Shown here: positions 4,859 through 61,640 of the stretch, one piece after another
Numbering within the stretch: position 1 is the first letter of the stretch
Layout of the letters: each line of letters begins with the position of its first letter
NCBI RefSeq assembly: GCF_030406325.1
Contig: NZ_JAUEQY010000012.1
Coordinates: 186,001-250,000, forward strand
Direction of reading: 5' to 3'
DNA: 64,000 nt
Source: Actinomadura sp. DC4
GTDB lineage: Bacteria; Actinomycetota; Actinomycetes; Streptosporangiales; Streptosporangiaceae
Translations under genes and position numbers: made by a program
The notes under the pieces: model-generated
What the model was told of the DNA's origin: nothing
The model's input: only the letters and a program-made list of their open reading frames with translations
Database searches by the model: none

Positions 4859-7714
4859 TCACTCGACGGGCTGGTAGAAGCGGAGCAGGCCGCCGATGTT
4901 GGTCAGCTCCGTGGTGGCCTCGGTGAGCAGCCGTGGCCAGTCGCCGTCGTCGCGGTCCGCGGCGACGGCGGTTTCGATGGCCGAGCGCGCCGCGGTGCCC
5001 CACAGCGTGGCGTGACGGGCGGCCTCGTCGCGCTGGCCGCGGTCCCACCACCGGGTCACGTGCTCCAGTTGCCCGGCGAGGTCGTTCCCGGGAATGGGGC
5101 GCCCGTACCGGCGCTCCCAGGTCGGGCTGTCGGGATGGCGGCCGGCGGCCGGGTCGCGGCGGTGGGCGGCCTGGAGCTCTTCCAGGACCAGGCACCACTC
5201 GTACGGGACGGTGAACCACTCGGGCTCCTCGCCCGTGCAGACGCCGCCTCCGCCGAGACGGCCGCGGAGGGCTCCGGCGAGGTGGTCGGCGAGCCGGCCT
5301 GGGTCGGTCCGGGCGGTGATCACCGACGCGCGGGCGTCGACGGCGGCGTCGACGGCGTGGGACAGGGCGCAGTCGAGGAGCCGGTCCGGGAGCGCGCGCA
5401 GCGTGTCCAGGATCGCCGGGCCGGGAACCGGCGCGCCCCAGCCGGACAGGTGCGCCGCGGTGGTGAGCTCGACCCACAGCACGACGGCCGGGTGGTCGGT
5501 GAGGACGCGCTGCGCGGTGCGCATGTCCCGCAGCGTGCACGGCGAGGTGTGGCAGTCGGTGCCGCACGTGCTGCTGCGGGAGCCGACGAGCACGCCGGGT
5601 GAGGCGAGCCGTACGGGCCGGGCCTCGGCGGCGGTGCCATCGGGCATGCGGGCCAGGTGAGGGTAGTCCATGCCGTCGGTGAAGACGGCGCCCTCGCCGG
5701 GGCGCAGGGTGACGAGGAACTGGGACTGGGCGTCGGTGATGTTCATGGTCGCGCCGACGGCGTCCCGGTCGTCCTTGGCGGGCAGCCGGTGCACGATCTT
5801 GACGGCGGTGTTCTTGATGACGTCGGGCACGAGCTTGGAGGGGATCTGCTCGGCGACGATCAGGCCCTCTCCGTACGCGCGGATCTCGGCGAGCAGCCCG
5901 GCGAACATCTCGACGGCGTGCGCGGCCGGCCCGGTGTCATCGCTCTTGCGCAGCAGCCGGTGGGCTTCCTCGAAGACGCTGAGATGCCGCAGGCCGGCCG
6001 GGGCGCCGCCCTCGGCGCGCTGGCGCATCCGCAGATGCTCCACCAGGCGGACCAGGACGGTGCCCATCAAGAACGCCTTGTCGCGGTCGTCGCCGACGTC
6101 CTCGATCTCGAACACCACGTTGCGTGCCAGCAGGCGTCCGAAGTCGATGGGGTGGCCGCCCTCGAAGAACCGGCCCGTCGTGCCGAGGCGGAGGCTGGAC
6201 AGCCGCACGCGGATGAATCCGCGAACGTTGTCGGTGATCTCCTTGCCGTACCCGATCTCCGTCACGACCTCCTCCGCCGCGGCCTGCAGATCGGCCAGGG
6301 TCGGGTAGCGGGGAGCGGTGCCGGGAGTACGGGGTTCGCCGAGGGCCAGGTCCCAGCCGAGCTGTTCGTAGCAGCGGGTCAGCGCCGCGGCCAGGACCTG
6401 GGGGAAGGGCTCGTCGGACTCGAACGCGGCCAGGAACAGCGCCCGCACCAGGTCCGCGTGGGTCTGCAGCGGGAACGCCCGCCCGTCGGCGTCCTTGGCG
6501 GGTTCGAGGGGGTTGATGCCCGCCGCGATGGCTTCGACGTCGCCGGGGCGGATCGCGACGACTTCGGCGTCGGGCAGGCGGGCGGCCATCAGCCGGTATT
6601 CGGCCTTGGCCGGCTCGACCACCAGCCACGGCAGCCCGGCGGCGGTCGCGGACGCCAGCAGCCCGCGTACCGTCTGGGACTTGCCGGCACCGGTCGCCCC
6701 GCAGACGAAGGTGTGCCGGTTGAGGCTGTCCAGCGGGACGGACAGGACTCCGACGTCGGTACGGTTGCGGTCCAGGACCTGCCCGAGCGGCACTCCGCCC
6801 GCACCCGGGGTGGTCTCGGGGGTGACGTCGAACTCGGGGCGGACGGCGAACCGCACCCCGGGCACCTCGCGTACCGGGGGCCGGGCGAGCGCGGCGACCA
6901 TCCGGGACCCGGCCTCGAACGGCCAGCCGGGCCCCGAGACGACGGGCTCGCCGGTGCCGGGCAGCGGCGCCAGCGCGTACGGCACCCCGTCCAGATCCGC
7001 CGAGGCGCACACCAGCGCCGCGACCCGGGCCGCGGCCTGCTCGCTCATGCCGCCGGCCAGCAGGCGCACCCGCCACAGGCCGCTCGAACCGCCCTGGCGC
7101 AGCTCCCGGTGCCGGCGTTCCAGCCGCAGCGCCCGCACCGCGTTCTCCGGGGAGCGTTCGGCCATCGACTGGGCGGTGTACGCGCGGTCGGCGACCTCGT
7201 CGGCGAGCCGGCCGCTCTCGCCGGGATCGATGGGTTCGGCGAGGAGCAGCCACGCGAACGGCTGCGTCCACACCGACAACAGGCAGTCCTCCAGCGAGGG
7301 CCGCACCATCTGCTGCCCGGGGTCGGTCCGTTCGTCGACGAGGAGACCGTCGGTGATCCCGCCGATCCGCGTCCAGCACGGCAGATCACCCATCGCGTCC
7401 GCCACCGCGCCCGGACGCAGCAGCCGGCCGCGCCCGCCCGCCGGCAGGCTCAACGCCGCCGCGCCGGCGTCGCCTTCGGTGATCAGTCCCTGGCCGCCGA
7501 CGAACACCTCCACCGGCCCGGCGGCCAGCGTCCGCCGCCACCCCACCAGCACCGGCCCGTCACCGTGGTACGCCGACACCAGCGCGGCGAGCCGCTGATC
7601 TCGCGACTCATCCCGGCCACCGGCCTCGCCCTCATCGGTGAGCCGGCGCCGCGGCACCTCCGTCAACCGGCACGCCGGGACGTCGCGGACCAGGTCCCAC
7701 ACCGATTCGGTCAC
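4859..7714 (-). CDS. HerA/FtsK-superfamily ATPase with C-terminal Cys motif
   Basis: 951 residues. The N-terminal third has no motif I recognise. The ATPase core carries Walker A GATGAGKS (about residues 339-346) and Walker B-like LSVFEEAHRLL (near 578), then the arginine-rich EQIPSKLVPDVIKNTAVKI stretch typical of HerA-like DUF87 proteins. About residue 718 is a CGTDCHTSPC cluster that could bind zinc. The C-terminal ~220 residues are unrecognised. HerA proteins form hexameric pumps working on DNA with a nuclease, or in export systems on proteins. The GTG start lies three bases after the stop of the exonuclease gene, so the two are translationally coupled. The exact role is unknown; ATPase activity is likely. 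Confidence 0.85.
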   Translation of the reverse strand: MTESVWDLVRDVPACRLTEVPRRRLTDEGEAGGRDESRDQRLAALVSAYHGDGPVLVGWRRTLAAGPVEVFVGGQGLITEGDAGAAALSLPAGGRGRLLRPGAVADAMGDLPCWTRIGGITDGLLVDERTDPGQQMVRPSLEDCLLSVWTQPFAWLLLAEPIDPGESGRLADEVADRAYTAQSMAERSPENAVRALRLERRHRELRQGGSSGLWRVRLLAGGMSEQAAARVAALVCASADLDGVPYALAPLPGTGEPVVSGPGWPFEAGSRMVAALARPPVREVPGVRFAVRPEFDVTPETTPGAGGVPLGQVLDRNRTDVGVLSVPLDSLNRHTFVCGATGAGKSQTVRGLLASATAAGLPWLVVEPAKAEYRLMAARLPDAEVVAIRPGDVEAIAAGINPLEPAKDADGRAFPLQTHADLVRALFLAAFESDEPFPQVLAAALTRCYEQLGWDLALGEPRTPGTAPRYPTLADLQAAAEEVVTEIGYGKEITDNVRGFIRVRLSSLRLGTTGRFFEGGHPIDFGRLLARNVVFEIEDVGDDRDKAFLMGTVLVRLVEHLRMRQRAEGGAPAGLRHLSVFEEAHRLLRKSDDTGPAAHAVEMFAGLLAEIRAYGEGLIVAEQIPSKLVPDVIKNTAVKIVHRLPAKDDRDAVGATMNITDAQSQFLVTLRPGEGAVFTDGMDYPHLARMPDGTAAEARPVRLASPGVLVGSRSSTCGTDCHTSPCTLRDMRTAQRVLTDHPAVVLWVELTTAAHLSGWGAPVPGPAILDTLRALPDRLLDCALSHAVDAAVDARASVITARTDPGRLADHLAGALRGRLGGGGVCTGEEPEWFTVPYEWCLVLEELQAAHRRDPAAGRHPDSPTWERRYGRPIPGNDLAGQLEHVTRWWDRGQRDEAARHATLWGTAARSAIETAVAADRDDGDWPRLLTEATTELTNIGGLLRFYQPVE

Positions 7715-7717
7715 CGC

Positions 7718-8296
7718 TCAGCCCTTCCGCGCCATCAGGTTCTGGAACAGCTCCGCCTGCTCGACCGCGTCATCCAGCGCGTTGTGCGTGTGCGGACGCC
7801 GGGACAGCAGGTCCGCGGGCATCTGGCTCTTCGTCGAACGGGAGATGAGCGTCCCGGCCTTGGCCGCGTACAGCGTCTTCATGTCCACATGCCGGGAGTG
7901 ACCGAACGGGGACCCCCTCTCCGCGAACCGCACGAAGTACCAATAGGCCCACATCCAGTCATAACCGAGTGGATAGGCGACGAAGACCGGCGTCGCGCCG
8001 GCCGCGATCTCCGCCACCCACGCGGACGCGGCGCTCATCGCCTCGCCCGGATCCCGGCCCTCGACCGCGAGCCGCTCCCGGTCCAGGCCGCTGACCGCCA
8101 GCGCATCGGGTACGAACGTGTCGCTGATCGGCTTCAGCTCCGCGTAGAACGTCCGCGCGGCCGGATCGCTCGCCGTGAAACCGGCGCCGTCGGCGGTGCC
8201 GCAGGCCGCCATACCGAGGCTGAGCAGGGAGTACGGGCCGGGAATCGGCCCGTCCGCCTCCACGTCCACCGACACGTACACCTCACGCCTGGCCAT
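7718..8296 (-). CDS. DEDDh-family 3'-5' exonuclease
   Basis: 192 residues, the size of a bare DnaQ/RNase T-like domain. Exo I is SVDVEADG (Asp11, Glu13); the middle acidic motif is probably in YPLGYDWMW; Exo III is HNALDDAVEQAELF near the C-terminus, with the His-x4-Asp spacing of the DEDDh class. It resembles the actinobacterial 3'-5' exoribonuclease-like group, so DNA or RNA could be the substrate. The ATG at 8296 is fixed by GGAAGGACACCC just upstream; the open frame extends 67 codons further but without coding sense. It lies directly upstream of and coupled to the HerA-type ATPase, recalling HerA-nuclease pairs. Confidence 0.85.
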   Translation of the reverse strand: MARREVYVSVDVEADGPIPGPYSLLSLGMAACGTADGAGFTASDPAARTFYAELKPISDTFVPDALAVSGLDRERLAVEGRDPGEAMSAASAWVAEIAAGATPVFVAYPLGYDWMWAYWYFVRFAERGSPFGHSRHVDMKTLYAAKAGTLISRSTKSQMPADLLSRRPHTHNALDDAVEQAELFQNLMARKG

Positions 8297-8340
8297 GGGT
8301 GTCCTTCCGATACTCATGACGGGCATGTCGGCTCGTGCCC

Positions 8341-8661
8341 TCACTCGGGCGGATTCTTCTCTTCCCATGCCTGGGAGATCTGCGGGAGCACGTGAAAGAG
8401 CCGTTCTCGGCACGCGGCCACCGCTGCATGGTCGTAGTCGGCTTCGCGGGTGGTCGCATCGAGCTGCCAGTCGTTCGGCTCGTTGCCCGGACGCCACAGG
8501 TGGATGTTGACGCCTGGTGCTATCTGTCCCTTGCCGGGCGTGTCTTTGGAGAGATCGTCGGTGTCACCGATCCGCATCCCGGTCGCCTCGCTCAGGAGCC
8601 GGCTGTGGTAGCCGTCGAGGTCGGCGGTGAAATGGAAGTCGAACAACGTCTTGATGCTCAT
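8341..8661 (-). CDS. Small hypothetical protein of the island
   Basis: 106 residues, acidic, with no membrane segment or signal. Begins MSIKTLFDFHFTADLDGYH and contains GVNIHLWRPGNEPNDWQLD. I do not recognise a family. Its ATG overlaps the stop of the long acidic gene upstream in an ATGA junction, so the two are translated together. By position directly behind a toxin-like gene it could be its immunity or chaperone protein, but nothing in the sequence proves that. Confidence 0.75.
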   Translation of the reverse strand: MSIKTLFDFHFTADLDGYHSRLLSEATGMRIGDTDDLSKDTPGKGQIAPGVNIHLWRPGNEPNDWQLDATTREADYDHAAVAACRERLFHVLPQISQAWEEKNPPE

Positions 8662-9974
8662 CGATTGGTCTGCTCCTCAAGTTCGATCACTTTCCAGTCG
8701 CTGTCGTGCAGTCCCGTGGCCGGTCCTCGGTGATCGAACGTGGCGATCGTGACGTCCCGTCCGAGAATGCCCTCCCAGCGTCCGGCCCAGTCATGGAGCG
8801 CCGGGGCGACACGTTCCAGATGCCGGTGTTTGTAGTGGCCGCCGTGTTCGGACCGCCACCCGGTCTTCGGATCGGCCTTCTCGAACTGCTGGAACCGGTC
8901 GGCCAGGCCGTCGCTGGCCACTTGAAAGTCGTAGTCGCTCGGCTCGTTGGTCGCGTCGAGTTCGTACATGCTGTCGAAGAACGGCGCGGCGGGTTTACCT
9001 CCATCCTCAGCGAAGCCCGCCTCTCGATACGTCGCGACGGCGTTGTCCGTCCGCCGCGTCCGTTCCTCCGGTGGTGCGTTGCGGTAATGGTCGGTGACCT
9101 TGGCGCGTAGTTCGTCCTCAGTCTGCGGGAACGACTTTTTCGGGTTCTCCGAGCAGAACCGGGCCGCGGAGCCCTTGAGGCGTACGTCGGCGTCAGTGAT
9201 GCCCTCGGTGGCGAGCGCCTCGTGCAGTTCCCCCGTGCACATGGCCCATTGTTCGGGCTGTGTCCCGAGAGGTGTGCGACGCTCGTGCATGTCCCAAGCC
9301 TGCTGTGGGGAGATTCCGGCGAAGGCGTACTCGCGATCAGTGAACGCGTAGTCCGACCGGTCGGTGACCTCCGGATACATGGGTCGTTCCGCGGCCGCGT
9401 CCGGTCGATCCCGCCGTTCGAGGGGCCCCGTGACCTCGGCCGTGGAGGGCGAGTCGGTGCTCTGGGCGGCGGATTTCCGGAATGCCGCCTCTGTGGATGG
9501 CCGGGTGTCCTGGGATCCCCAGATGACCGACGGACGGATCTCTGCCGCGATCCCGTCGGTGACGTCCGCGCGCGCACCCGACTCTTCGGCCTCGGGTCGT
9601 TCCTGCTCCTCGCCGACCACTTCATCGGGGAACGCACTGCGATCCTTACGCGTGCCCTCGACGGACGGCGCACTGTCGTCCGTGCCCGTGCCGACGGCGG
9701 CAGCGCTTTCGGGCGCGGCCACCGAACCGGCTGGTTCTGGCTCGGTGGTGGATCCCACGTCCTGCTGGGCGGCTTCCGGCTTGTCTTCGCCCGGCTCCTG
9801 ATCTGTGCGGCTGCTCGTGGTGTCGTTGGCGGCGGCCGCGCCCGCGCGGCTGTCCGCCCGGGATGGCGCGCCATCCGCGCCAGGGGCATCGGCTGGAGTA
9901 CGGCGCTCGGGGGCGGCAGGTTCCTCTGTCACCTCGGCGTCGGTGTCGCCGATGGTCGTGCGGTCAGCGGTCAC
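8658..9974 (-). CDS. Toxin-like protein: acidic leader plus conserved C-terminal domain
   Basis: 438 residues from the GTG at 9974. Residues 1 to ~200 are low-complexity, rich in Asp, Glu, Pro, Ala and Thr, and probably disordered. They carry GADGAPSRADSRAGAAAAN, which matches the N-terminus of the acidic protein at 12908-14044. The C-terminal ~200 residues are ordered: RLKGSAARFCSENPKKSF, then PSDYDFQVASDGLADR and GGHYKHRHLERVAP. The Gly-Ser and Asp-x-Asp-like marks recall nucleotidyltransferase-fold toxins but are more widely spaced than in that fold, so this is only a suggestion. The start was chosen because MTADRTTIGDTD aligns with MATDRASDGTDT of the other protein. It has the layout of a polymorphic-toxin substrate. 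Confidence 0.75.
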   Translation of the reverse strand: MTADRTTIGDTDAEVTEEPAAPERRTPADAPGADGAPSRADSRAGAAAANDTTSSRTDQEPGEDKPEAAQQDVGSTTEPEPAGSVAAPESAAAVGTGTDDSAPSVEGTRKDRSAFPDEVVGEEQERPEAEESGARADVTDGIAAEIRPSVIWGSQDTRPSTEAAFRKSAAQSTDSPSTAEVTGPLERRDRPDAAAERPMYPEVTDRSDYAFTDREYAFAGISPQQAWDMHERRTPLGTQPEQWAMCTGELHEALATEGITDADVRLKGSAARFCSENPKKSFPQTEDELRAKVTDHYRNAPPEERTRRTDNAVATYREAGFAEDGGKPAAPFFDSMYELDATNEPSDYDFQVASDGLADRFQQFEKADPKTGWRSEHGGHYKHRHLERVAPALHDWAGRWEGILGRDVTIATFDHRGPATGLHDSDWKVIELEEQTNR

Positions 9975-10013
9975 GACCAAGGCCCGCCTGAAGATCGAGG
10001 AAGTGGGCGCCCG

Positions 10014-10035
10014 GTGAGGTGAATGTGTACCTCAC
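10014..10035. promoter_or_regulatory. Inverted repeat in the divergent promoter of the island
   Basis: Perfect 7-base arms GTGAGGT and ACCTCAC separated by 8 bases, about 40 bases upstream of the toxin-like gene (minus strand) and 205 bases upstream of the VirD4-like gene (plus strand). The whole 9975-10240 stretch is the only non-coding gap between the two arms of the island, so it must contain both promoters. The repeat could be a regulator binding site; no regulator gene is next to it. I could not pick out convincing -10/-35 boxes. Confidence 0.4.
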
Positions 10036-10240
10036 AATCCGCTTCCTCCCCGTGTGTGCGGCCTTGTGACGCGTCTGCGGCCGAGGGGCCAGGTTATTGA
10101 GCGGGTCGCCCGATTGGAAGCGTTCGCCCCATACAGAAGTAGTGACAAGTCCGCTATGGCTCTGCTTGGGTTGTTAACCGGGGATGGTCAAAGGTGATTG
10201 TCAAGTACGTGCGCGGTGGGGGTACGGGGGTTTCGGAATC

Positions 10241-12454
10241 ATGACCGTCGAACCGGTCAGTCGTCAGTCGCTGCTGGAACGGCGGTCTCTGCTGTTCTCC
10301 CCGGATCCGCGGCTGGGCTGGGTCTTCCGTGATCGCTGGGCGTTCTACACGCCGTTCACCGATCCTCGGCCGCAGCCTCGGCGGCTGCCGGAATACCTGC
10401 ACCGGCAGGTCGTCCAGACCGAACAGGTGGCGCGGCGGCGCCTGACCCGAACTTTTCCGTTGAGTCTTACCGCATTCGCGGTCCTGGCGGCGTTCTCGGC
10501 GTACGCGGTCGGCGACCATTCGCTCGCAAAGGCATCGGTGCCGGTCGGGTCGATCCTTTTGGCGTTGATCTGTCTGGCGCCGGGCGCCGTGCTGACCGGG
10601 ATCGCGCTCCGCATGCGGCGTAACGCCCGCGCGGCGTACGAGCTCGCGCGTCGCCAGGCCGAGCAGGCGTACGAGGCCGAGCTGAGAAACTGGCAGGCGC
10701 GCCGGCACCACCACGAGGCGAACGAACGCGGCGCGGCGAGCGCGCGCCCGGAGTGGGGTACGGTTCCGCGTCCCCTCGCCAAGCGGCGCCTGGACGTGTT
10801 CGGCGGCACGCTCTTCGGCTGGGAAGCGCTGCTGAGCACCTATGGATCCTCGGCCTTGATCACCGGGCCGCTGCTGGTCATCGACCTGTCGCGGGAGCTG
10901 GTGTGCGGGGAGCTGGCGTCGCTGGCCCGGGCCGCGAACATCGAGGTCGACACCCAGCTCCTGCCGGCCCGGCTCGCCGCGTCCACCCTGCTGTCCGGGC
11001 TGGGCGCCCGGGAGCTGGTGGACGCGATCGTGGAGTCGATGTACGGCGGCTCGGCCGAGGCCGCGCGGGCCGAACGCAGCATGGACGACCGGATCTTGAC
11101 CAAGGTCTGCGACGCGCTCGGTGAGCACGTCTCCCTGGCACGGATCGGCGCGGCGCTGCGCGCTCTCATGGGCGAACCGGATGACTCACCGGTCCTGGAG
11201 CGCGACGAGCGCCGTCGTATCGGGAACGAGCTGTTCAGCGTGGAGTACCGGCGCCAGGCGCACGCGAACATCTCCCGGATCGAGTCCTACATCCACCCCA
11301 TCGAGGGTCTCGGCGCCGAACCCGAGGACCGTACTCCGGGGTTCCTGACGTGTATCGCGCTGGACAGCGAGGCCCGCAACGTACGGTCGGAGCTGTTGAC
11401 CGACCTGATCGTGCAGTGGGTCACCCATCGGGTCACGGCCTCTGCCGACCCCCGCCCGTCCGTGGTCGTCGCCGGCGCGAACGAGCTCGCTCGCCGTCAC
11501 CTCGAACGCCTCGCCGACGCCTGTGAACGCCGGGGCGTACCGCTGACGCTGTTGTTCCGGCGGTTGCGGGAGACCGGCGGGGAGATGCTCGGCGGAGGCG
11601 CGGTCGCGTTCATGCGGCTGGGCGGCCACGAGGACGCGGCCAAGGCCGCGGACTTCATCGGCCGGGACCACAAGTTCGTGCTGTCCCAGATCACCAAGAA
11701 CGTCGGCGGCAACGAATCCCACACCGACTCCGACACCGAAGGCGCCGGCGATTCGGACACGATCAGCACGTCACGTTCGCTCGGCACGTCGACGAACTGG
11801 GGCGACACCCGCTCCTCGGGCGTGACCCGCTCCGGAGGAGGCCCTGCCGGGTTCTTCACCGACCGCTCCACCAACACCGGTGACTCCCGTACCCGGGGCG
11901 GAGGGACGAGCGAGACGGACACCACCGGCGAGAGTCGATCGGTGTCGAGAAACTGGTCGAGTGCCTACTCGTACGCCGAAGGAACGAACTGGAGCGACGC
12001 CGACACCAGTCAGCGCGTCTATGAGTACGCCGTCGAACCGGTCACGCTGCAGCACCTCCCCGACCACGCCCTCCTGCTCGTCGAGACCCGCCCGGAAGGC
12101 GGCCGGAGACTCACCCCCGTCGAGTGCGACCCGGCCATCGTGACCTTGGACCGCGTCGCGACCACCCCGCTACCGGACCCGCCGCGGCACCGGGCCACGC
12201 AGCCCCCGCCGGTAACGTACGCGCCGCGATGGGCCGCACCACCACCGGTCGAACCACCGCGCACGCAGTTGCCGTACGCGCCCGGCCCGCCATCGGGACA
12301 CCAGGCCGGCCCCCGCCCAGCGCCACCGCAGCCCAAGGCCGGGAGGACCTGGCCCCGTACCCCACCCGGCACCACCCCGCCGCCGCGCCGCGCGCCACGA
12401 GACGACGACTCGCCGGGACCACCGCCGCTGTTCGGCCGCGACGGAAACCGGTGA
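10241..12454 (+). CDS. VirD4/TraG-like membrane protein with degenerate P-loop
   Basis: 737 residues. Two membrane helices near residues 65-85 and 90-115 are followed by a charged helical linker. The ATPase-like core has GGTLFGWEALLSTYGSS where a Walker A would be, without the GK[ST]. VVVAGANELARRHLERLAD stands in the Walker B position, without the DE pair. Then comes FIGRDHKFVLSQITKNVGG. A Ser/Thr/Gly-rich stretch (about 510-610) and a proline-rich tail follow. This is the shape of T4SS coupling-type proteins in actinobacteria, probably a docking rather than ATP-burning subunit. ATG at 10241 has GGAATC upstream and removes a 19-codon extension. It is the first gene of the right arm; its stop overlaps the next gene by GTGA. 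Confidence 0.7.
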   Translation: MTVEPVSRQSLLERRSLLFSPDPRLGWVFRDRWAFYTPFTDPRPQPRRLPEYLHRQVVQTEQVARRRLTRTFPLSLTAFAVLAAFSAYAVGDHSLAKASVPVGSILLALICLAPGAVLTGIALRMRRNARAAYELARRQAEQAYEAELRNWQARRHHHEANERGAASARPEWGTVPRPLAKRRLDVFGGTLFGWEALLSTYGSSALITGPLLVIDLSRELVCGELASLARAANIEVDTQLLPARLAASTLLSGLGARELVDAIVESMYGGSAEAARAERSMDDRILTKVCDALGEHVSLARIGAALRALMGEPDDSPVLERDERRRIGNELFSVEYRRQAHANISRIESYIHPIEGLGAEPEDRTPGFLTCIALDSEARNVRSELLTDLIVQWVTHRVTASADPRPSVVVAGANELARRHLERLADACERRGVPLTLLFRRLRETGGEMLGGGAVAFMRLGGHEDAAKAADFIGRDHKFVLSQITKNVGGNESHTDSDTEGAGDSDTISTSRSLGTSTNWGDTRSSGVTRSGGGPAGFFTDRSTNTGDSRTRGGGTSETDTTGESRSVSRNWSSAYSYAEGTNWSDADTSQRVYEYAVEPVTLQHLPDHALLLVETRPEGGRRLTPVECDPAIVTLDRVATTPLPDPPRHRATQPPPVTYAPRWAAPPPVEPPRTQLPYAPGPPSGHQAGPRPAPPQPKAGRTWPRTPPGTTPPPRRAPRDDDSPGPPPLFGRDGNR

Positions 12455-12918
12455 ACCCGATGTTCGCCGTGGAAGAGGCCATCGCACTGGCCCGGAAGGC
12501 ACATGCCGGCCAGACCGACAAGGCCGGCCGCCCTTATATCGACCATCCGCTCCGCGTCATGCACCGCCTTACCGGCGAACACGAGCGGATGGCCGCCATC
12601 CTGCACGACGTCCTGGAGGACACCCCGACCACCGCCGAGGACCTGCGTACGGCCGGCTGCCCAGAACCGGTCATAGCGGCCGTACGAGCCCTGACCAAGA
12701 ACCCCGGCGAGCCACTCGAGGACAGCATGGCGCGCGCCGCTGAGAACCCGATCGCCCGCGCCGTCAAACGCGCCGACATCGCGGACAACAGCGACCCGGC
12801 CCGCCTGGCCCTCCTGGACGAGCCGACCGCGAGGCGCCTACGCCACAAGTACGCCGAAAGCACCCGCCTCCTCAACCGCCACGCCAGAGCCGCAGGGGAG
12901 AACCCCGATGGCCACTGA
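12451..12918 (+). CDS. Small alarmone-hydrolase-like HD protein
   Basis: 155 residues matching the HD domain of RelA/SpoT and of single-domain hydrolases of (p)ppGpp (MESH1/SAH). Marks in order: AHAGQTDKAGRPYIDHP with His32, the His52-Asp53 pair in AAILHDVLEDTP, and VKRADIADN with the last metal ligand. All metal residues of an active hydrolase appear present. No synthetase, TGS or ACT domain exists. The GTG start overlaps the stop of the VirD4-like gene (GTGA); the ATG at 12460 is an alternative. Its place inside a conflict-type island suggests a role in neutralising a nucleotide signal or toxin product, but this is inference. Confidence 0.85.
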   Translation: MNPMFAVEEAIALARKAHAGQTDKAGRPYIDHPLRVMHRLTGEHERMAAILHDVLEDTPTTAEDLRTAGCPEPVIAAVRALTKNPGEPLEDSMARAAENPIARAVKRADIADNSDPARLALLDEPTARRLRHKYAESTRLLNRHARAAGENPDGH

Positions 12919-14044
12919 CCGCGCGAGCGACGGCACCGACACGAACGCCGAGACCACAGAGGCCCAACCCGACCGCCGCCCGCCACCACCGGCGGACCGG
13001 CCCGGAACCGACGGCTACCCTTCCCGCGCCGAAAGCCGCGACCGAGCAGCCGCCGCCAACGAGACCAGCACCCAGAACACCGAGAAACCGGCCGACGACA
13101 AAGCGGACACCTCGCACGCATCGCAGGAGACCTCCGGCGAACAAGGCTCCAATGCCACCGAGAAGCCTGAGCCGCCCGGCACACCGGAGTCCAACGAGGG
13201 AACCGGCAACGACGGTGCCGGCAAGCGGGACGACTACGGTCCCTCGCAGGAAAACACTGAGGCCCGGTCCGACACGGCACCGCCCTCGGACGGCGTCATC
13301 GGTTCGACGAAGGAGACCGATCGGCGCGAACAGCTACCCGATGGTCAGAGCGCTCCGGACGACGGCACCACCTCGCCCGAGACGGATAAACAGCCCGTAT
13401 CCGCGATCGCGACCGAACGACCTGAAGACGAGGACACAGGGAAGCCACTCGCCGACGACGACTCGACTCGGATGACAGATCGCTCCGTTGAGGCACTCGC
13501 GGACGAGGAAGCTGCTGCCGACACCGACGATGCCTCTAGCAGCGGTGCGAAGACGCTAGCCCGACGATTCGAATCACTCGATGAAGCAGACCCCGGAGCG
13601 ACCGACGAGCGTAGTGCGGACGTGAAGGGCACCACCGACGAGGGGACTGAGCTCACCCTCCAAGGTGATTCAACGAGCGAACGGACCGAACCAACTTGGG
13701 CCACCGGTGGACTGGATATCGCAGGAATCCTGCCGACCGGCGAAGAGCTGGTCAAGATGGAAAACGACAAGCAGTCCCGGGCGGAGAGAGCCCGTCGGAA
13801 GATGTATGAATCCGGCGAAGAGGTCCTCGACGACGTAGGGAAGGTCGTCAATCGGATCGACCAGATCTTCCAGCGTCCGCCGGCCGGCCATCCAGAGACG
13901 AGAACAGGCCCGGAAGCGGTCCCAGCACCGCATGATGGGATCAACGCAGCGGATACTGTAACCGCGCTGATCGCGGCGGGTGTCGTAGTCGGCGAGGTCT
14001 ACCGCAGAGGCCGTGAGAGGCTGAAACAAAAGAAAGGTGTTTGA
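12908..14044 (+). CDS. Long acidic protein sharing the toxin-like leader
   Basis: 378 residues. Residues 1 to ~270 are acidic, Thr/Ser/Pro-rich and probably disordered. GTDGYPSRAESRDRAAAAN near residue 37 matches the leader of the protein at 8658-9974 at most positions. The C-terminal ~110 residues look helical (EEVLDDVGKVVNRIDQIFQ) and end with one short hydrophobic stretch (ADTVTALIAAGVVVGEVY) plus a basic tail. No known domain was recognised. ATG at 12908 has an AGGGGAG site and overlaps the HD gene by 11 bases. Either a second exported effector or a structural/adaptor protein carrying the same sorting signal. Confidence 0.7.
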   Translation: MATDRASDGTDTNAETTEAQPDRRPPPPADRPGTDGYPSRAESRDRAAAANETSTQNTEKPADDKADTSHASQETSGEQGSNATEKPEPPGTPESNEGTGNDGAGKRDDYGPSQENTEARSDTAPPSDGVIGSTKETDRREQLPDGQSAPDDGTTSPETDKQPVSAIATERPEDEDTGKPLADDDSTRMTDRSVEALADEEAAADTDDASSSGAKTLARRFESLDEADPGATDERSADVKGTTDEGTELTLQGDSTSERTEPTWATGGLDIAGILPTGEELVKMENDKQSRAERARRKMYESGEEVLDDVGKVVNRIDQIFQRPPAGHPETRTGPEAVPAPHDGINAADTVTALIAAGVVVGEVYRRGRERLKQKKGV

Positions 14045-14046
14045 CG

Positions 14047-14484
14047 ATGCCGGTGACTGCTAATCAGGTAGCGGCCCTGAAGGCTTACCTGACGGGGGAC
14101 TTTGATAGCCACAAGCGGCTATTTGGACAGCTCGACCGGACCGCTGCCCAGACCGGTTACACGGCGCTTCTTACCGCCGCGTTCTTCGAAGCGGTTGATC
14201 GTAGATTCGCGCCGGACGGCAAAACCGCCGACGTGGTCGAGTTCGTCGCCGACGTACGGACCCGTCACCTCACGGACGCCGATGAGATCGACCCACGTGC
14301 TGCCGAACGTCTCATTCTCGCCATCTTCACCGATGAAGAAGTCGACGATATTGACACTGAGACCAAGGTCAGCACCCAAATCATCCTCTTGTACGCGCTG
14401 ATCGTCGATGCGCGACTCGACGATGCTCAACTCGATGGATTCTTGGTCGAAGCCAGCAAGCTGGCCGACGAATGGACCAGCTGA
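14047..14484 (+). CDS. Hypothetical helical protein, first of a tandem pair
   Basis: 145 residues, acidic, mostly helical by composition, no signal peptide. It aligns along its whole length with the next gene: VTANQVAALKAYL against VSGEQVAALRAFL, and AFFEAVDRRFAP against AFVSAVRRRFSP. The ATG at 14047 follows the stop of the acidic gene by two bases with a GAAAGG site. The gene uses more A/T-ending codons than the flanking core genes (35 of 60 bases are G or C in 14101-14160, my hand count), which suggests recent acquisition. Function unknown; a cytoplasmic immunity or adaptor protein would fit the position. Confidence 0.75.
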   Translation: MPVTANQVAALKAYLTGDFDSHKRLFGQLDRTAAQTGYTALLTAAFFEAVDRRFAPDGKTADVVEFVADVRTRHLTDADEIDPRAAERLILAIFTDEEVDDIDTETKVSTQIILLYALIVDARLDDAQLDGFLVEASKLADEWTS

Positions 14485-14504
14485 CGCGATCGGCGGAGCG
14501 CGGC

Positions 14505-14957
14505 ATGCTGGTGAGCGGCGAGCAGGTGGCGGCGCTGCGTGCCTTCCTGGCACTTGACCCCGACCAGGCTGGACGGTTGACCGAGCAACTTGTCGAGTCC
14601 GGTCGTGTGGAGGGGTACGGCGAGTTGGTATATGCCGCCTTCGTCAGCGCGGTTCGTCGCCGGTTCTCCCCGACATGGACGGTCGCTGACGTCATCCGGT
14701 TCGTGGCCGCTAAGCGCGCTGAGCTGCTTGAGGATGGCGCAGAGGTTGATCCTCTCACTGCGGAGATCTTGGTTAGGCGAGCACTCGGTGGTGGCATCGC
14801 AACCGAGCTGGACGAGAAGTCCAGAGCCCGCGCACAGATTCTTCTGCTTGGCGAGATAGTGGCCGATGCAGGGTTCGATGATGCAGGGCTTGATGATTTC
14901 CTCGCCCAGGTACGCTCATTGGCCGATCAGATGACCTTAGGTGATCTACCGGGCTGA
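14505..14957 (+). CDS. Hypothetical helical protein, second of a tandem pair
   Basis: 150 residues from the ATG at 14505, which has GGCGGAG seven bases upstream; an ATG at 14472 inside the previous gene is possible but less likely. Paralogue of the preceding protein, sharing the TVADVIRFVAAKRAELL block (TADVVEFVADVRTRHL there) and the FDDAGLDDFLAQVRSLADQ end (LDDAQLDGFLVEASKLADE). It closes the right arm of the island and is followed by an intrinsic terminator. Tandem divergence of this kind is common in immunity genes but is not proof. Confidence 0.75.
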   Translation: MLVSGEQVAALRAFLALDPDQAGRLTEQLVESGRVEGYGELVYAAFVSAVRRRFSPTWTVADVIRFVAAKRAELLEDGAEVDPLTAEILVRRALGGGIATELDEKSRARAQILLLGEIVADAGFDDAGLDDFLAQVRSLADQMTLGDLPG

Positions 14958-15021: not shown

Positions 15022-16170
15022 CTACTGTACGAATTTTCTGCGCAGACGCTGGGCACGGCGTACGTCAAGGGGCGGGAGGGCGAGCAGACGGCCGGTGCGG
15101 TCAGTGCCGATGATGCCTGCCTCAATGGTGATTTCCAAGGCTGAGAGTAGTTGCGGGCCCAAGCCGAGGCCAGCCACTGCGTGGTCGGCATTGAACTCGG
15201 TCCGGTCGGTGGAGAACCGGGACAGGGCCGCGCCGACGACGGCGACGCCGACCGGGATCACCAGGACCGCGAAAACGATGGCCACCGCGATGGCGAGCAG
15301 GAACGTCACCAGGAACCCGAACGGAGTATGCCACCGCACGGCCACCCGCCACATGCGCCGTACGGGATGCCAGATGCGGGTGAGCAGCCACCACAGCGCC
15401 CGGATCGGCAACGTCAGCTGCGTGTAGCAGAACACCGGCACGGCGTTCAGGCCGACGTGGTGGCTCAGCTCGTGGGCCAGCACCGCTTCGAGCTGGTCCG
15501 GTGGCAGCGACTCGGTCGCGTACGAGGTGAGGACGACGAGCTGTCCGGTCGTCGCGGGAGCGTTCAGCTCGCGTGATTTCACGATCATCAGCCGGACCCG
15601 CCCGGCGGACAGTCCGACGCGGTCCAGCGCGCGGCGGGCCGGCTCCTTGAGGCGGCGCAGCTCCTCCGTGGTCGGGTCACGGTAGCCGTACGCCTTCTGG
15701 AGGAACGTGGCCCGCCAGGACGCCAGCACCGCCCCGGCCGCCCAGACCACGATCGGCACGGCGGCGCCCCACAGCGGCCAGACCAGGTGCAGTCCGTAGG
15801 CGATCGGCGCCACGATGGTCAGCGCGCCGATCGCCGCCGGGATCAGCGTCGTCAGGGCGACGATGGTCGAGCCGAGCCCTGGCCCGGCCAAGGGGGGGCC
15901 GGTTATGGGCGTTCCGTCGAGCGGCGTCGCCGCGGCGTGGGGTACGGGCGAGGACGCATGCCGCGCCGGCACGGCCGGCGGTGGCGACAGGGGTCCGCGC
16001 GCGGTGCGGCCGGCGGGAAGCGACGCCAGGCCGGTCCGCGCCGGACCCGGCGCGGAGGGGGTCTGGGACGCGCCGCGGGTGGCGGCGGTCCACGCGCGGC
16101 CGTCCCAGTAACGCTGGAACGCCCGCTCGCGCGGGTCCGGATACCAGCCGGGAGGCGGTTGGCCGGTCAC
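15022..16170 (-). CDS. M48-family membrane metalloprotease with N-terminal DUF2510 domain
   Basis: 382 residues. Residues 1-30 are a DUF2510 module (GWYPDPRERAFQRYWDGRAW), common on actinobacterial membrane proteins. A Pro/Ala-rich linker leads to a pair of membrane helices (LGSTIVALTTLIPAAIGAL and following). The peptidase domain has VLAHELSHHVGLNAV (HExxH zinc site) and a downstream Glu ligand in RTEFNADHAV, the HtpX/Ste24 pattern; a further strong helix pair separates them. Likely degrades misfolded or toxic membrane proteins. The GTG at 16170 has AGAGG upstream. It converges on the island with the terminator in between, so membership of the island is uncertain. Confidence 0.88.
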   Translation of the reverse strand: MTGQPPPGWYPDPRERAFQRYWDGRAWTAATRGASQTPSAPGPARTGLASLPAGRTARGPLSPPPAVPARHASSPVPHAAATPLDGTPITGPPLAGPGLGSTIVALTTLIPAAIGALTIVAPIAYGLHLVWPLWGAAVPIVVWAAGAVLASWRATFLQKAYGYRDPTTEELRRLKEPARRALDRVGLSAGRVRLMIVKSRELNAPATTGQLVVLTSYATESLPPDQLEAVLAHELSHHVGLNAVPVFCYTQLTLPIRALWWLLTRIWHPVRRMWRVAVRWHTPFGFLVTFLLAIAVAIVFAVLVIPVGVAVVGAALSRFSTDRTEFNADHAVAGLGLGPQLLSALEITIEAGIIGTDRTGRLLALPPLDVRRAQRLRRKFVQ

Positions 16171-18926: not shown

Positions 18927-21900
18927 GTGATCAAGAAACCAGGGCTGCGGCCCGTCCTGGCCGTGGCCCTGCTGGCCACGGTCATCCCCGCCGCAGCCGG
19001 CGGCGGAACCGCCGGCGCCGAGACAGGGGCGAGCGAGCGGGTCATCATCCAGCTCGACACCGCGCCCGGAGCGCGGCAGGAGAGCCTGCGTGACCAGGCC
19101 GGCCGGGCCGGTGTCACCCTGCGTCCCTCGCGGGAGTTCTCCCGGCTCGTCAACGCGGTCGCTGCGACCGTCCCCGCCGATCGGCTGGGCGCCGTACGGG
19201 CACTGCCCGGTGTGAAGGCCGTCTATCCGGACCTGCCGATGAAGGCCGCCGCCGACGCGAACATCGGTCTCATCGGCGCGCCCGATCTCTGGAAGCGCGA
19301 GGACCGGACGGGCCGTCACGTCACCGGTTCCGGCGTCACCGTCGCGGTCATCGACAGCGGTGTCGACGCCACCCACCCCGACCTGGCGGGGAAGGTCGTC
19401 GGAGGGCACGACTTCGTCAACGACGACGACGATCCCGCCGACGACAACGCGCACGGTACCCACGTCGCCGGCATCATCGCGCAGACCGCGCCCGGCGTCT
19501 CGCTGACCGCCTACAAGGTGCTCAACGCCGACGGCGCCGGCTACGAGTCGGACATCATCGCGGGCCTGGAGGCCGCCGTCGACCCGGCCAACCCGCACCG
19601 CGCCCAGGTCGTCAACATGAGCCTCGGCGGCCCGGGCGACGGCACCGACCCGCTCGGGCAGGCCGCCACCCATGCCGCGCGGTCCGGCGTGGTCGTCGTC
19701 GCGGCGGCCGGCAACGACGGCCCGGGGGCGTCGACCATCGGCACGCCCGCCGCCGCGGACGGGGTGGTGGCCGTCGGGGCCTCGTTCAGCGGAGTGCGGA
19801 TGCCCGCCGCCCGGCTGACCCGGACCGGCGAGGAGCTGCAGACGACCCGCGCCGGATACTCGGCCAACCCACCGGTCAAGCCCGTCACCGGCACCCTCGT
19901 CGACCTCGGTCAGGGAGAGCCCGCCGACTTCGCCAGGGCCGGTGACCTCCACGGCAAGATCGTCGCCTACTCCGCACAGGCCGGCACCACCGACCTCGCC
20001 CGGGAGGCCGAGGACCGCGGCGCGATCGCCGCTCTCCTGTACTCCGGCGGGGACGCCGGCCCGCAGCGCACCGGCGTGCGACCGGCCACGCCTCACACCC
20101 TTGCATCGGGCGACGACCTGCGCATGGACAAGATCGTCGTGATGGGCGTGGACGAGACCCAGTGGGCCGAGCTGGGCCGGCTGAGCGCGCGGGGCAAGGT
20201 CCAGATCACGATCAGCGGTGAGGACGTCACCGACCAGATCGCCGACTTCAGCTCACGCGGCCCGACCACCCGCTACACGCTCAAGCCGGATCTGGTCGCA
20301 CCGGGCGTCGAGATCCGGTCGAGCGTGCCGAAGGACCTGTGGCCCTCCGGGGAGTACCGCATGTCCGGCACCAGCATGGCGTCCCCGCACGTGGCGGGCG
20401 CCGCCGCACTGCTGTCCCAGCTCGGCACCCCGCACGTCGCCGCCACGCTCATCGGTGCCGCGAAGCCGCTGGCCGGCACCGGTCCGACGACCCAGGGCAG
20501 CGGCCGGCTCGACGTCGCCGCCGCGGCGGACGCGACCGTCACCGCTCAGCCTCCGGCCGTCTCGTTCGGCCTGGCCGATCTGCGTGACCGTACGACGAAG
20601 GCCAGGGCCACGGTCACGCTCACCAATGAGGGACGTTCCACCGTCAGGACGCGTCTCGGCGTCTCCGCGGCCCCGGGCAGCGCGGGCCGGGTCCAGGTCA
20701 CCCCGTCGAGCGTGACGATCCCGGCCGGCCGGAGTGTCACGGTCACCGTCGGCGCCACCGCGGACCGCGCCGCCACCGACACCGACGTGAGCGGCTGGGT
20801 GACGGTGGGGGACCGGCTCCGCGTGCCGTACCTGCTCGCGCTGCGGCCGCTGCTGCTGAGGACCACGCCCGACCCGAGCGACGGGCACTCGGAGGTGTTC
20901 GCCTACGCCCCGGCGGACCTGGCCACGCCCCCGGTGGTGACGGTGACGGCCCCGGACGGGAAGCGCACGGACGTGACCACCACCCTCGACCACGACCGCT
21001 GGTACCGCGCCCCGGTGACCGGGCCGAAGGCCGGCACGTACACGCTGGAGGCACGGGCCACCACGGCCGGCGGCCAGGTGCTGTGGGGCCAGGGCACGTT
21101 CGAGGTGGTCGCGGCCGCGACCGGCGACCACCGCTGGGAGCCGATCGGGCCGAACGGCCAGGCCGGGCGGCTGGCGACCTCACCCGCGGCCCCCGGCCAG
21201 CTCGTCCTCGCCCAGCCCGGCAAGGCGGGGCTCTGGCTCACCACCGACCGCGGCCGGAAGTGGCGGCAGCTCGACCGGCTGCCGGTGGCCGGCGGCACCG
21301 GCACCGTCGTGGTCGACCCGAAGGACCCGAAACGGATGTGGTACGCGGTGAACGGCCGGGCCGACGCCGACTCCGTCGTCGCCTTCGACCCGACGTACGA
21401 GGGAAAGGTGCTGTCCACCGGCGACGCCGGGCGGACCTGGCAGACCCTCGCCTTCCCCGACACCCACGTGAACGCGCTGCTGTCGGAGGACCGGACGCTG
21501 GTCGCGGTGACGGCGGACGGCATCGTCAGCAGCGACGATGGGGGAGCGCACTGGACCACGCACGCGACGACGCTCCCCGCCGGTGTCCGGGGTGCGGCCC
21601 TGACCGGCGGCGACCTGTACGTGAGCGCGAGCGGCGGGGTCTGGGCCGTACGCGACGCGGTGGGGGACGATCTCGCCCCCGCGCGGCAGGTCCTCACGAC
21701 CACCGGCGGGGCCACTCCGGTCGGCGTCGCGGCGGACGCGCGACTTGTCGTCACCGCGACCGCGGACGGCGTGGTCCGCGGCTCACGTGACGGCGGCCGT
21801 ACGTGGAGCGTGCTCCACGACACCGGGCCGGACGGCGGGTACGCCGTCTCGGTGCGGATGGTCGGCGGGACCGTGTACGTCGGCGACACCGAGCAGGACT

Positions 21901-23000
21901 TCGCCGGCCGCGACCACGGCGCCATCTGGAAGGCGTCGCCCAAGCCCGCGAGAGGCCCGGTCGACGGCGACTTCGGCACGCTCGGGAACGACACGCTGGT
22001 GTCGGCCGAGAGCGGCGGCCTGTACTCCACGGGTGACGGCGGCGGCCACTACACCCGGATCGGCGTGCAGGGCACCTCGGTGCACGCGCTGGCGCTCGGC
22101 GAGCGGACCGACGGCACGACCGCGCTCGTCGCCGGCACCGACACCGGGACCACCGCCGCCGCGCTGCCGACCGGCCGGCGCGTGAACCCCGAGTGGGGCG
22201 CCAACGGCGAGGAAGGGACCGTCGGCACGACGATCGGCCAGCTCGCCGCCTCACCGTCGGACCCTCGCGTGCTCTGGAAGGTACGCACCGACGCGTTCCG
22301 CGGCTTCTGGCTGTCGCGTTCCGCCGACGGCGGCGTGACCTGGTCCGACGTCACCCACCAGGGTGAGACGCCGACCGCCCTGCTGGTCCACCCGGCCGAC
22401 TCCCGTGAGGTCGCGGTCGGCTTCACCAGCCTGGCCGGCGACGGTCTCTACGTCACCCGCGACGGCGGGGAGACCTGGCGCAAGTACGTCCTGGGACACC
22501 GGGTCGACGCGGTGGCCGGTGACCCGGTCACCCCCGGCCGGCTGTGGATCGGCACGCCCGACGGCCTCTACCGCTCCGATGACGGCGGCGCGCACGTCAC
22601 CAAGGCCGCCGACGGTGCGGTGTCGGCGATCGGCGTCGACCGCAGGAGGCCGCAGCGGATCGTCGCCGGCGGTGCCGCACTGCGGGTGAGCACCGACGGC
22701 GGCCGCACCTTCCGTACCGGAGACGCGGGTCCGCTGGCGATGCGGGTGTCGTCCCTGGTGATGTCGCCGCGCGACCCGGACGTGCTGTACGCGGGCACCG
22801 CGTCGTACTCCCAGAACGGGCTGCTCGCCGGCGGCCGGGGCGTGCTGCGCTCGGCCGACGGGGGGCTCACCTGGCAGAACGTCTCCGCGGGGCTGCAGAA
22901 CACCGCCGTGCTCGGCCTGGCCGTCAGCCCCGACGGCGGGTGGCTGTACGCCGGTACCGAGCAGGGCGGGGTGCATCGCCTCCGCCTGCTGGACAGGTAG
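18927..23000 (+). CDS. Secreted subtilisin-like (S8) protease with PA insert and BNR propeller
   Basis: 1357 residues. GTG at 18927 gives a clean signal peptide (basic IKKPGLRP, then a hydrophobic core ending near AGGGTAGA). An I9-like propeptide (about 30-100) precedes the S8 domain with Asp143 (AVIDSGVD), His176 (HGTHVAG) and Ser483 (SGTSMASPHVAG). A protease-associated domain is inserted between His and Ser (GDLHGKIVAYSAQAG). After beta-sandwich regions, the last ~600 residues hold at least seven BNR-like repeats (S-x-D-G-G-x-T-W types such as RDGGRTWSV, ADGGVTWSD, TRDGGETWRK), predicting one or two propellers. An extracellular protease, probably with a binding propeller for polymer or surface. 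The propeller makes it much longer than standard subtilases. Confidence 0.93.
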   Translation: MIKKPGLRPVLAVALLATVIPAAAGGGTAGAETGASERVIIQLDTAPGARQESLRDQAGRAGVTLRPSREFSRLVNAVAATVPADRLGAVRALPGVKAVYPDLPMKAAADANIGLIGAPDLWKREDRTGRHVTGSGVTVAVIDSGVDATHPDLAGKVVGGHDFVNDDDDPADDNAHGTHVAGIIAQTAPGVSLTAYKVLNADGAGYESDIIAGLEAAVDPANPHRAQVVNMSLGGPGDGTDPLGQAATHAARSGVVVVAAAGNDGPGASTIGTPAAADGVVAVGASFSGVRMPAARLTRTGEELQTTRAGYSANPPVKPVTGTLVDLGQGEPADFARAGDLHGKIVAYSAQAGTTDLAREAEDRGAIAALLYSGGDAGPQRTGVRPATPHTLASGDDLRMDKIVVMGVDETQWAELGRLSARGKVQITISGEDVTDQIADFSSRGPTTRYTLKPDLVAPGVEIRSSVPKDLWPSGEYRMSGTSMASPHVAGAAALLSQLGTPHVAATLIGAAKPLAGTGPTTQGSGRLDVAAAADATVTAQPPAVSFGLADLRDRTTKARATVTLTNEGRSTVRTRLGVSAAPGSAGRVQVTPSSVTIPAGRSVTVTVGATADRAATDTDVSGWVTVGDRLRVPYLLALRPLLLRTTPDPSDGHSEVFAYAPADLATPPVVTVTAPDGKRTDVTTTLDHDRWYRAPVTGPKAGTYTLEARATTAGGQVLWGQGTFEVVAAATGDHRWEPIGPNGQAGRLATSPAAPGQLVLAQPGKAGLWLTTDRGRKWRQLDRLPVAGGTGTVVVDPKDPKRMWYAVNGRADADSVVAFDPTYEGKVLSTGDAGRTWQTLAFPDTHVNALLSEDRTLVAVTADGIVSSDDGGAHWTTHATTLPAGVRGAALTGGDLYVSASGGVWAVRDAVGDDLAPARQVLTTTGGATPVGVAADARLVVTATADGVVRGSRDGGRTWSVLHDTGPDGGYAVSVRMVGGTVYVGDTEQDFAGRDHGAIWKASPKPARGPVDGDFGTLGNDTLVSAESGGLYSTGDGGGHYTRIGVQGTSVHALALGERTDGTTALVAGTDTGTTAAALPTGRRVNPEWGANGEEGTVGTTIGQLAASPSDPRVLWKVRTDAFRGFWLSRSADGGVTWSDVTHQGETPTALLVHPADSREVAVGFTSLAGDGLYVTRDGGETWRKYVLGHRVDAVAGDPVTPGRLWIGTPDGLYRSDDGGAHVTKAADGAVSAIGVDRRRPQRIVAGGAALRVSTDGGRTFRTGDAGPLAMRVSSLVMSPRDPDVLYAGTASYSQNGLLAGGRGVLRSADGGLTWQNVSAGLQNTAVLGLAVSPDGGWLYAGTEQGGVHRLRLLDR

Positions 23001-61255: not shown

Positions 61256-61269
61256 GATCGATACTCCTT

Positions 61270-61395
61270 CGCTTCCATGCCGCTTACCGGGTTAGCTGAC
61301 GGGTTCGGGCGTGGAAGCTGCCCTACGACGCATTTGGGGATACGTCGATTCACCCCAGTGGTGCGGTGGGTCCCCGGTTCCGCGATGACGCGGAT
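61270..61395 (-). ncRNA. c-di-AMP riboswitch (ydaO/yuaA type), gene-proximal copy
   Basis: On the minus strand the leader reads, in order, CGGAACCGGGGACCCACCGC, GGGGTGAATCG, a variable hairpin, GTAGGGC, CGCCCGAACCCGTCAGCTA, ACCCGGTAAGCGGCATGGAA. These are the conserved blocks of the actinobacterial ydaO riboswitch, which in Streptomyces and relatives lies before resuscitation and cell-wall hydrolase genes and turns them off when c-di-AMP binds. It ends at the ribosome site of the CHAP gene. Boundaries are approximate. Confidence 0.88.
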
Positions 61396-61402
61396 TCAGC
61401 GG

Positions 61403-61427
61403 GAGCCGTCCGGGACTCGGACGGCTC
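61403..61427 (-). terminator. Perfect 10-bp hairpin between the two riboswitch elements
   Basis: GAGCCGTCCG, five-base loop, CGGACGGCTC. It lies after the distal element and before the proximal one in the direction of transcription. It may be the expression platform (terminator without U-run) of the distal element or a structural spacer. Confidence 0.5.
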
Positions 61428-61504: not shown

Positions 61505-61640
61505 CACTCCCTGGATTCAGGCGCCTACCGGGACGGCTGGCGGGTTCGGGCGGGAAAATCGCCCTACGGGCACGCTGGGGGCGTGCCGATTCACCTCAGG
61601 AGACACAGGAGGGTCCCGGTCCCGTCGCGTCGGACGGGTT
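61505..61640 (-). ncRNA. c-di-AMP riboswitch-like element, distal copy
   Basis: The same block order as in the proximal copy, ~235 bases upstream on the minus strand: GACGGGACCGGGACCC, GAGGTGAATCGGC, hairpin GGCACGC/GCGTGCC, GTAGGGC, CGCCCGAACCCGCCAGC, CCCGGTAGGCGCCTGAATCC. One normally conserved stretch differs (CAGCCGTCCCGG here, CAGCTAACCCGG in the proximal copy), so ligand binding may be changed. Boundaries are approximate. Confidence 0.7.

Follow-up and report, generated by a model that had tools for sequence, protein, structure and literature searches.

A divergent nine-gene island of Actinomadura sp. DC4, a probable polymorphic-toxin locus with a candidate export core

The genome of Actinomadura sp. 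DC4 is available as an assembly of 10.67 Mb in 101 contigs (GCF_030406325.1). Within it, a stretch of 64,000 nucleotides (contig NZ_JAUEQY010000012.1, positions 186,001 to 250,000), hereafter the window, holds an island of nine genes at window positions 4859-14957. The genes form two divergent arms, the left one in the order TOX4, SM, EXO and ATP and the right one in the order MEM, HD, TOX7, PA and PB. Neighbours within an arm overlap or are separated by 2-20 bp, and 260 bp lie between the arms (266 bp with the TOX4 start, 9974, chosen by the gene caller). All nine genes are supported by codon bias, as assessed by a gene caller which also recovers the annotated genes of two plasmid loci. A previous reading of this DNA, made from the sequence alone (the sequence-only reading), had described nine genes in two tight arms around a gap of 270 bases and had proposed that they build one machine; the layout stands, and a terminator it placed after PB was not confirmed: a terminator scan listed none past 14957, and its four matches elsewhere are at chance level. 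Here we argue for a polymorphic-toxin locus built around two core proteins, MEM and ATP, rather than a fixed nine-gene machine. The features are as follows.

4859-7714, minus strand: ATP, HerA/VirB4-like ATPase of 951 amino acids (aa), the constant putative pump (Pfam HerA_C/DUF87; PADLOC HerA, mad8; PDB HerA/VirB4)
~6671-6700, minus strand: Walker A motif of ATP, GATGAGKSQT
~5960-5971, minus strand: EEAH motif of ATP
7718-8326, minus strand: EXO, DEDDh-type 3'-5' exonuclease, optional accessory (PDB 7t2s, E 4e-27; PADLOC exonuclease effector, E 2e-44)
8341-8661, minus strand: SM, 106 aa, candidate cognate immunity protein by its position behind TOX4 with a 4-nt overlap
8658-9980 (caller start 9974), minus strand: TOX4, acidic disordered leader and C-terminal domain (residues 194-440), maybe nucleotidyltransferase-like
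9825-9896, minus strand: shared-leader core in TOX4, PADAPGADGAPSRADSRAGAAAAN (DNA matches in the L005 and L006 effectors and the L022 TOX7-like gene)
9981-10240, no strand: putative divergent promoter gap with a genus-conserved block (alignment of the window, L005, L006 and L022)
10241-12454, plus strand: MEM, membrane protein, VirD4/VirB4-fold domain without Walker motif
12451-12918, plus strand: HD, small alarmone hydrolase with HDxxED, probable orphan immunity protein (PDB 7smg, E 8.1e-30)
12908-14044, plus strand: TOX7, the other acidic protein with the leader, hydrophobic stretch close to the C-terminus (leader; relatives upstream of PA)
14047-14484, plus strand: PA, small paralogue (family, alignment)
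14505-14957, plus strand: PB, second paralogue, 41% identical to PA
15022-16170, minus strand: M48, membrane metallopeptidase (motif HELSH), facing PB in convergent orientation and beyond the range of the earlier reading (Pfam M48)

The island was compared with 84 actinomycete loci, namely the best 80 of 367 relatives and four plasmid loci (L001-L004); wider contig stretches behind L022, L006 and L005 (L104, L105 and L106) were not counted again. MEM was present in the fetched flanks of ATP in 66/84 loci, in tandem or divergent arrangement in most, and in six of the 18 loci lacking it ATP sits at a contig end. The two arms do belong together, as had been proposed. The nine-gene machine survives in its two-protein core, but the remaining genes are patchy: the C-terminus of TOX4 was found in 6/84 loci, EXO in 7/84 and relatives of PA/PB in 9/84.

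MEM has two N-terminal hydrophobic helices, a Ser-rich disordered insert (~11702-11998) and a Pro-rich tail, and it adopts the VirD4/VirB4 fold. Its Walker motif has been lost, GxxxxGK[ST] being present in one of 53 alignment rows (52 complete genes of 540-800 aa and the window), so that the earlier description of a VirD4/TraG-like membrane protein with dead ATPase motifs was correct. Walker A and EEAHR are intact in 33/33 rows of the ATP alignment (every second of 64 ATP genes and the window; plasmid loci L001-L004 were excluded from both alignments). In terms of type IV secretion systems (T4SS), ATP thus has the properties of a VirB4-class ATPase, with PDB matches to VirB4/HerA and intact motifs, and MEM keeps the fold of a VirD4-class coupling ATPase without the active site (GxxxxGK[ST] absent in 52/53). 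ATP is 82-84% identical to Actinoallomurus sequences, which makes an origin in that genus probable. The two proteins are not detectable as homologues by sequence, with no profile match (hhalign probability 0.3), and their kinship is consequently one of fold only. Two apparent fusions of MEM and ATP were discarded. A 1452-aa protein in L039 is a gene-caller artefact, as MEM is antisense there. For NF033849, the MEM profile gave only weak matches among nine more distant ATP relatives, and the two alignments examined lay in Ser-rich stretches; most of these nine relatives carry a Ser-rich insert ahead of the motor.

With such folds, and with some relatives on plasmids and a relaxase gene near one distant ATP relative (L149), MEM and ATP could be leftover T4SS conjugation ATPases lying by chance near toxin genes. 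We consider such a remnant of DNA transfer highly improbable: no other neighbour family is as widespread as MEM, the next being a peptidase, the ATP motifs are intact throughout the alignment, and LigD-type and MsrB-type genes adjoin the island in the window. The locus shares VirD4/VirB4-fold proteins with T4SS, one of which, in Stenotrophomonas, kills other bacteria (PMC12857230, PMC6759196, PMC11253643), but no other T4SS part was seen conserved beside the pair, and the VirD4-like MEM is without the ATPase motif. The accessible portion of the T4SS review PMC12857230 contains nothing of the kind of this MEM/ATP toxin locus.

A shared leader marks the candidate cargo. TOX4 and TOX7, on opposite arms, have 54% identity in residues 1-65 and 28% in the remainder, in agreement with the earlier suggestion that a common leader links the arms, and in their own genome only these two proteins gave significant matches. 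A regular expression for the leader matched 10 of 1353 called proteins, every one within two genes of MEM or ATP. The same break recurs between loci, where the window effector is 60% identical to that of L005 in residues 1-65 and 23% beyond, and 55% and 28% identical, respectively, to that of L006. At the DNA level the window aligns with L005 across the promoter and the beginning of MEM (79.6% of 226 bp) and across the leader (87.8% of 41 bp), and the match resumes only at the 3' end of EXO (86.3% of 102 bp), everything between the leader and that point being replaced. The EXO 3' end is the far border of the swapped segment: L005 retains a remnant of the exonuclease C-terminus behind a zeta-type effector. 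L022 lacks the segment, its ATP beginning 192 bases from MEM. The pattern is the trace left when a cassette is replaced and its borders stay conserved. In the gap between the arms a block is conserved in 4/4 aligned Actinoallomurus loci (window, L005, L006 and L022), even in L022, which has no toxin gene there; blastn identity is 77-80% from ~10077 onward, and in L022 from ~10142. A search for sigma-70 promoters gave no match.

What follows the leader varies, and in sister loci it often carries a recognisable toxin domain, which agrees with the proposal that the leader-tagged proteins are toxins. We picked 30 effector candidates by eye, a non-random set taken mainly from the listed genes behind ATP, and scanned them against Pfam at E 0.01. 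A family was matched above its curated cut-off in 14/30: Zeta_toxin in the effectors of L005 and L025, ADPrib_exo_Tox in those of L002 and L031 with a Scabin-like domain in L035, Peptidase_C2 (calpain) in L029, L034, L036 and L039, XOO_2897-deam and PI3_PI4_kinase in two separate proteins of L040, CdiA_C in L077, Gln_amidase in L083, and RHS repeats in the protein at 13024-17481 of L072, the gene behind ATP. Matches in L001 (RelA_SpoT) and L052 (Peptidase_C70) were below the cut-off. The L006 effector has no Pfam match and contains an alarmone synthetase domain matching a solved Streptomyces structure (8vx3, E 1.3e-20). The tandem plasmid loci follow the order MEM, ATP, effector and then small genes: L001 has a RelA/SpoT-type effector and an HD gene, L002 an ADP-ribosyltransferase, and L003 a protein with a lipase-like GHSLG motif (read by eye, without Pfam match) followed by an ankyrin protein. 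Identity breaking between leader and remainder, DNA breakpoints and Pfam domains together give the constant N-terminal region and variable C-terminal toxin domains of polymorphic toxins.

Composition points the same way. The first same-strand genes behind ATP (n=39) have a median N-terminal content of D/E/P/G/A/S/T of 0.68 versus 0.51 in the comparison group (n=1059; p 3e-20) and are also more negatively charged (p 1e-11), where Actinomadura loci were excluded from the behind-ATP group and kept in the comparison group, and proteins of less than 90 aa were excluded from both. At their low end the 39 overlap the background, and this low end includes a MurT-type gene, from L004, which belongs to the outgroup clade described below. 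Separately, a conserved polytopic membrane protein of ~220 aa directly follows ATP in many Actinomadura loci, 15 in all (L009, L013, L020 and 12 others).

A HerA-type ATPase beside an exonuclease and toxins also resembles an intracellular defence system, with all of these parts directed against phage or plasmids, and the PADLOC models for HerA, mad8 and the exonuclease effector do match ATP and EXO. The sequence-only reading had drawn this parallel and had made the nuclease a core part. Neither idea was supported, as EXO was not found in 77/84 loci, one of which (L005) keeps the remnant. The HerA-nuclease anti-phage systems modelled in PADLOC share with our locus a HerA-type ATPase and a nearby nuclease, but here the nuclease is not conserved and the cargo is swappable toxins. 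Variable toxins that share a constant leader and adjoin immunity-like genes are typical of delivered toxins, and polymorphic toxins are known to carry calpain, papain-like, CdiA_C and Rhs domains. We hold intracellular defence to be very improbable.

Small or hydrolase genes follow many effectors. In the window SM, which has no family match, is a candidate immunity protein for TOX4. The closest solved structure to HD is a (p)ppApp hydrolase (7smg, E 8.1e-30), and HD has the HDxxED motif, as expected from its earlier description as alarmone-hydrolase-like; in L001 a relative of HD lies two genes behind the RelA/SpoT-type effector. Judged by these matches, HD probably serves as an orphan antidote against a toxin of the alarmone-synthetase kind. 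The C-terminal domain of TOX4 is only weakly nucleotidyltransferase-like, and a Foldseek search with TOX4 gave no match below 0.001. On that resemblance EXO, together with SM, could be the TOX4 antidote, TOX4 adding nucleotides to RNA 3' ends and EXO trimming them, an arrangement compatible with toxin export. EXO lies directly behind TOX4 in L011, L019 and L026 and behind SM in the window, but TOX4 occurs without EXO in L007, L010 and L017, and EXO without TOX4 in L012, L029, L033 and L063, which leaves this antidote rather unlikely. The two tandem paralogues said to end the right arm are indeed there, PA and PB (14047-14957), whose family has 17 members among the called proteins, spread over 10 loci including the window; the family accompanies a TOX7-like protein with a hydrophobic C-terminal segment in the window and in L007, L008, L022, L027, L050, L057 and L070.

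All-against-all clustering of the 1353 called proteins gave the M48 peptidase as the widest family besides MEM and ATP, with 24 rows including the window, eight of them outside the Actinomadura/Actinoallomurus set; a profile search found it in 24/84 loci and the window. HExxH is present in 23/25 rows, the L008 match being cut by the locus end and L038 being without the motif, and five relatives checked are all Pfam M48. The gene abuts MEM in most Actinomadura cases (1-11 bp from it in nine Actinomadura loci). In seven Streptomyces loci it is the one just upstream of MEM on the same strand, 0-78 bp away, and in L071 it separates MEM from ATP. M48 is a clade-limited part of the locus, because it was not found in most tandem loci; it was also absent among the called genes of outgroup loci L088, L097-L103 and L117-L143. 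The same clustering gave no channel-like family spread over the loci, where small divergent membrane proteins could be missed.

The pair also occurs beyond the toxin loci. Of 31 genomes drawn evenly from the order, 28 have MEM relatives (E 1e-3) and 15 have ATP (E 1e-30); both occur in 14, MEM only in 14 and ATP only in one. MEM was found in 0/40 other genomes of an even phylum-wide draw, so that its prevalence is lineage-bound. In the ATP tree the outgroup sequences form a branch separate from that of the toxin loci (SH-aLRT 100, midpoint root). Among 27 outgroup loci (L117-L143) ATP is beside MEM in 12 and an ESX match in none, and in L118, L131 and L136 MEM is beside MurT/GatD-type and rhodanese genes, with no toxin recognised. 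A second MEM-family locus, with genes of the ESX type VII secretion system (T7SS), is present in 7/8 Actinoallomurus genomes (L088/L089 on contig C57, L097-L101 and L103), and ATP is beside the second Actinoallomurus MEM locus in 6/8.

These ESX neighbours raise the alternative that true polymorphic toxins leave through ESX/T7SS, with MEM and ATP as its feeder or accessory ATPases. EccC is itself an FtsK-class motor with a DUF87/HerA match, and ESX systems share with our locus a motor of the FtsK/HerA class and a locus protease (mycosin there, M48 here). But ESX genes (EccB/C/D, WXG100 or mycosin) are present at the paralogous MEM locus only: with ESX proteins of the own genome, phmmer matched a single subtilase (L060) among the called genes of the 84 loci. 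Furthermore, MEM is without an ESX match in 27/27 outgroup loci, three of them with MurT/GatD-type neighbours, and no scanned effector gave a WXG/LXG-type Pfam match. Export through ESX is, in our judgement, improbable, and like intracellular defence and the conjugation remnant it explains fewer observations than a polymorphic-toxin locus with its own export pair.

More distant ATP relatives are found on plasmids, of which ten regions were examined. On plasmids of Treponema, E. coli and Lactococcus (L146, L147 and L148), two dynamin-family genes precede a Ser-rich HerA-like ATP relative, which is followed by an HNH nuclease, accompanied by an SMI1/KNR4 gene in Treponema and E. coli and not in Lactococcus; the other seven regions have no such annotated HNH/SMI1-KNR4 pair. 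A phage origin was rejected, as 50,697 phage records gave just two weak matches.

We consider it likely that the island is a polymorphic-toxin locus in which a constant MEM/ATP core exports exchangeable, leader-tagged effectors toward competitors. In the proposed mechanism MEM, a catalytically dead VirD4/VirB4 relative in the cytoplasmic membrane, would serve as scaffold, and ATP, the active HerA/VirB4-like motor, would work on it. The pair would recognise the acidic, Pro-rich disordered leader of TOX4, and perhaps of TOX7, and push the effectors out of the cell and, past the wall, toward related competitors, where they would be toxic. The toxin domain behind the leader is exchanged, in a cassette that would take the immunity gene with it. 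In some families the membrane M48 peptidase may join the pair and trim cargo, which is a guess, or tend the complex. SM would neutralise TOX4, and HD would break down the alarmones that a competitor's synthetase toxin produces; L006 has an effector of this synthetase kind at the corresponding site.

Several observations weigh against this interpretation. MEM is lacking in the fetched flank in 12/84 loci although ATP is not at that contig end, and the outgroup MEM, a weaker relative, is without ATP at the threshold used in 14 of the 31 genomes. The latter is the independent occurrence of the arms that the sequence-only reading had named as telling against it; it appears in the outgroup, and the pair is kept in 66/84 loci. 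MEM/ATP pairs also exist without a visible toxin. TOX4 resembles a nucleotidyltransferase only weakly, and most of its Actinomadura relatives show decay of the GS and DxD motifs; TOX7 has no toxin domain recognisable by Pfam, and 14/30 picked effector candidates had no Pfam match at 0.01, with two more below the cut-off. The lack of WXG/LXG-type matches among scanned effectors counts here as well. Finally, no outer channel component that would take cargo across the wall was identified.

A broader possibility, which we put forward tentatively and hold as somewhat doubtful, is that MEM and ATP, with M48 in some families, are a minimal machine for protein translocation that has gone undescribed, pairing a dead with a live member of the VirD4/VirB4/HerA superfamily and present in many large-genome actinomycete families. 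One clade would have been weaponised with polymorphic toxins and another drawn into ESX loci, and distant ATP forms would export HNH toxins with SUKH-type immunity on plasmids of Gram-negative bacteria, spirochaetes and Bacillota.

To our knowledge, antibacterial protein delivery by monoderm actinomycetes is poorly known outside T7SS and contractile systems. In the accessible portions of Zhang et al. 2012 (PMC3482391), classical polymorphic toxins likewise have a constant N-terminal trafficking part, a variable C-terminal toxin, adjacent immunity genes and an overlapping repertoire, but no trafficking mode listed there is a dead VirD4-like ATPase with a VirB4/HerA pump, and T4SS apparently do not serve them. 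The locus would thus hold polymorphic toxins of a known kind with a candidate new export core. In literature drawn mainly from outside subscription journals, including the accessible part of PMC7159879, we found the system undescribed beyond one passage of PMC12691689. There, in the part accessible, a Streptomyces albireticuli alarmone synthetase gene adjoins TrwB-, TrwK- and TrwI-like genes, and this locus may be of the same kind, although that part describes a single locus and no system, leader or other toxins. The paper concerns exported alarmone synthetases of Streptomyces, and the L006 effector matches the solved Streptomyces synthetase 8vx3. The system may in turn explain why a Streptomyces alarmone synthetase lies beside conjugation-type genes. 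If our interpretation is true, a two-protein core with many interchangeable toxin domains is a compact and testable export model, and a finder for new toxin-immunity pairs, because the gene behind ATP is often cargo.

Elsewhere in the window, positions 18927-23000 encode a subtilase of 1357 aa with a sortilin-type match, and two tandem cyclic di-AMP (ydaO) riboswitch aptamers lie on the minus strand at 61265-61411 and 61506-61655, both above the Rfam gathering score.

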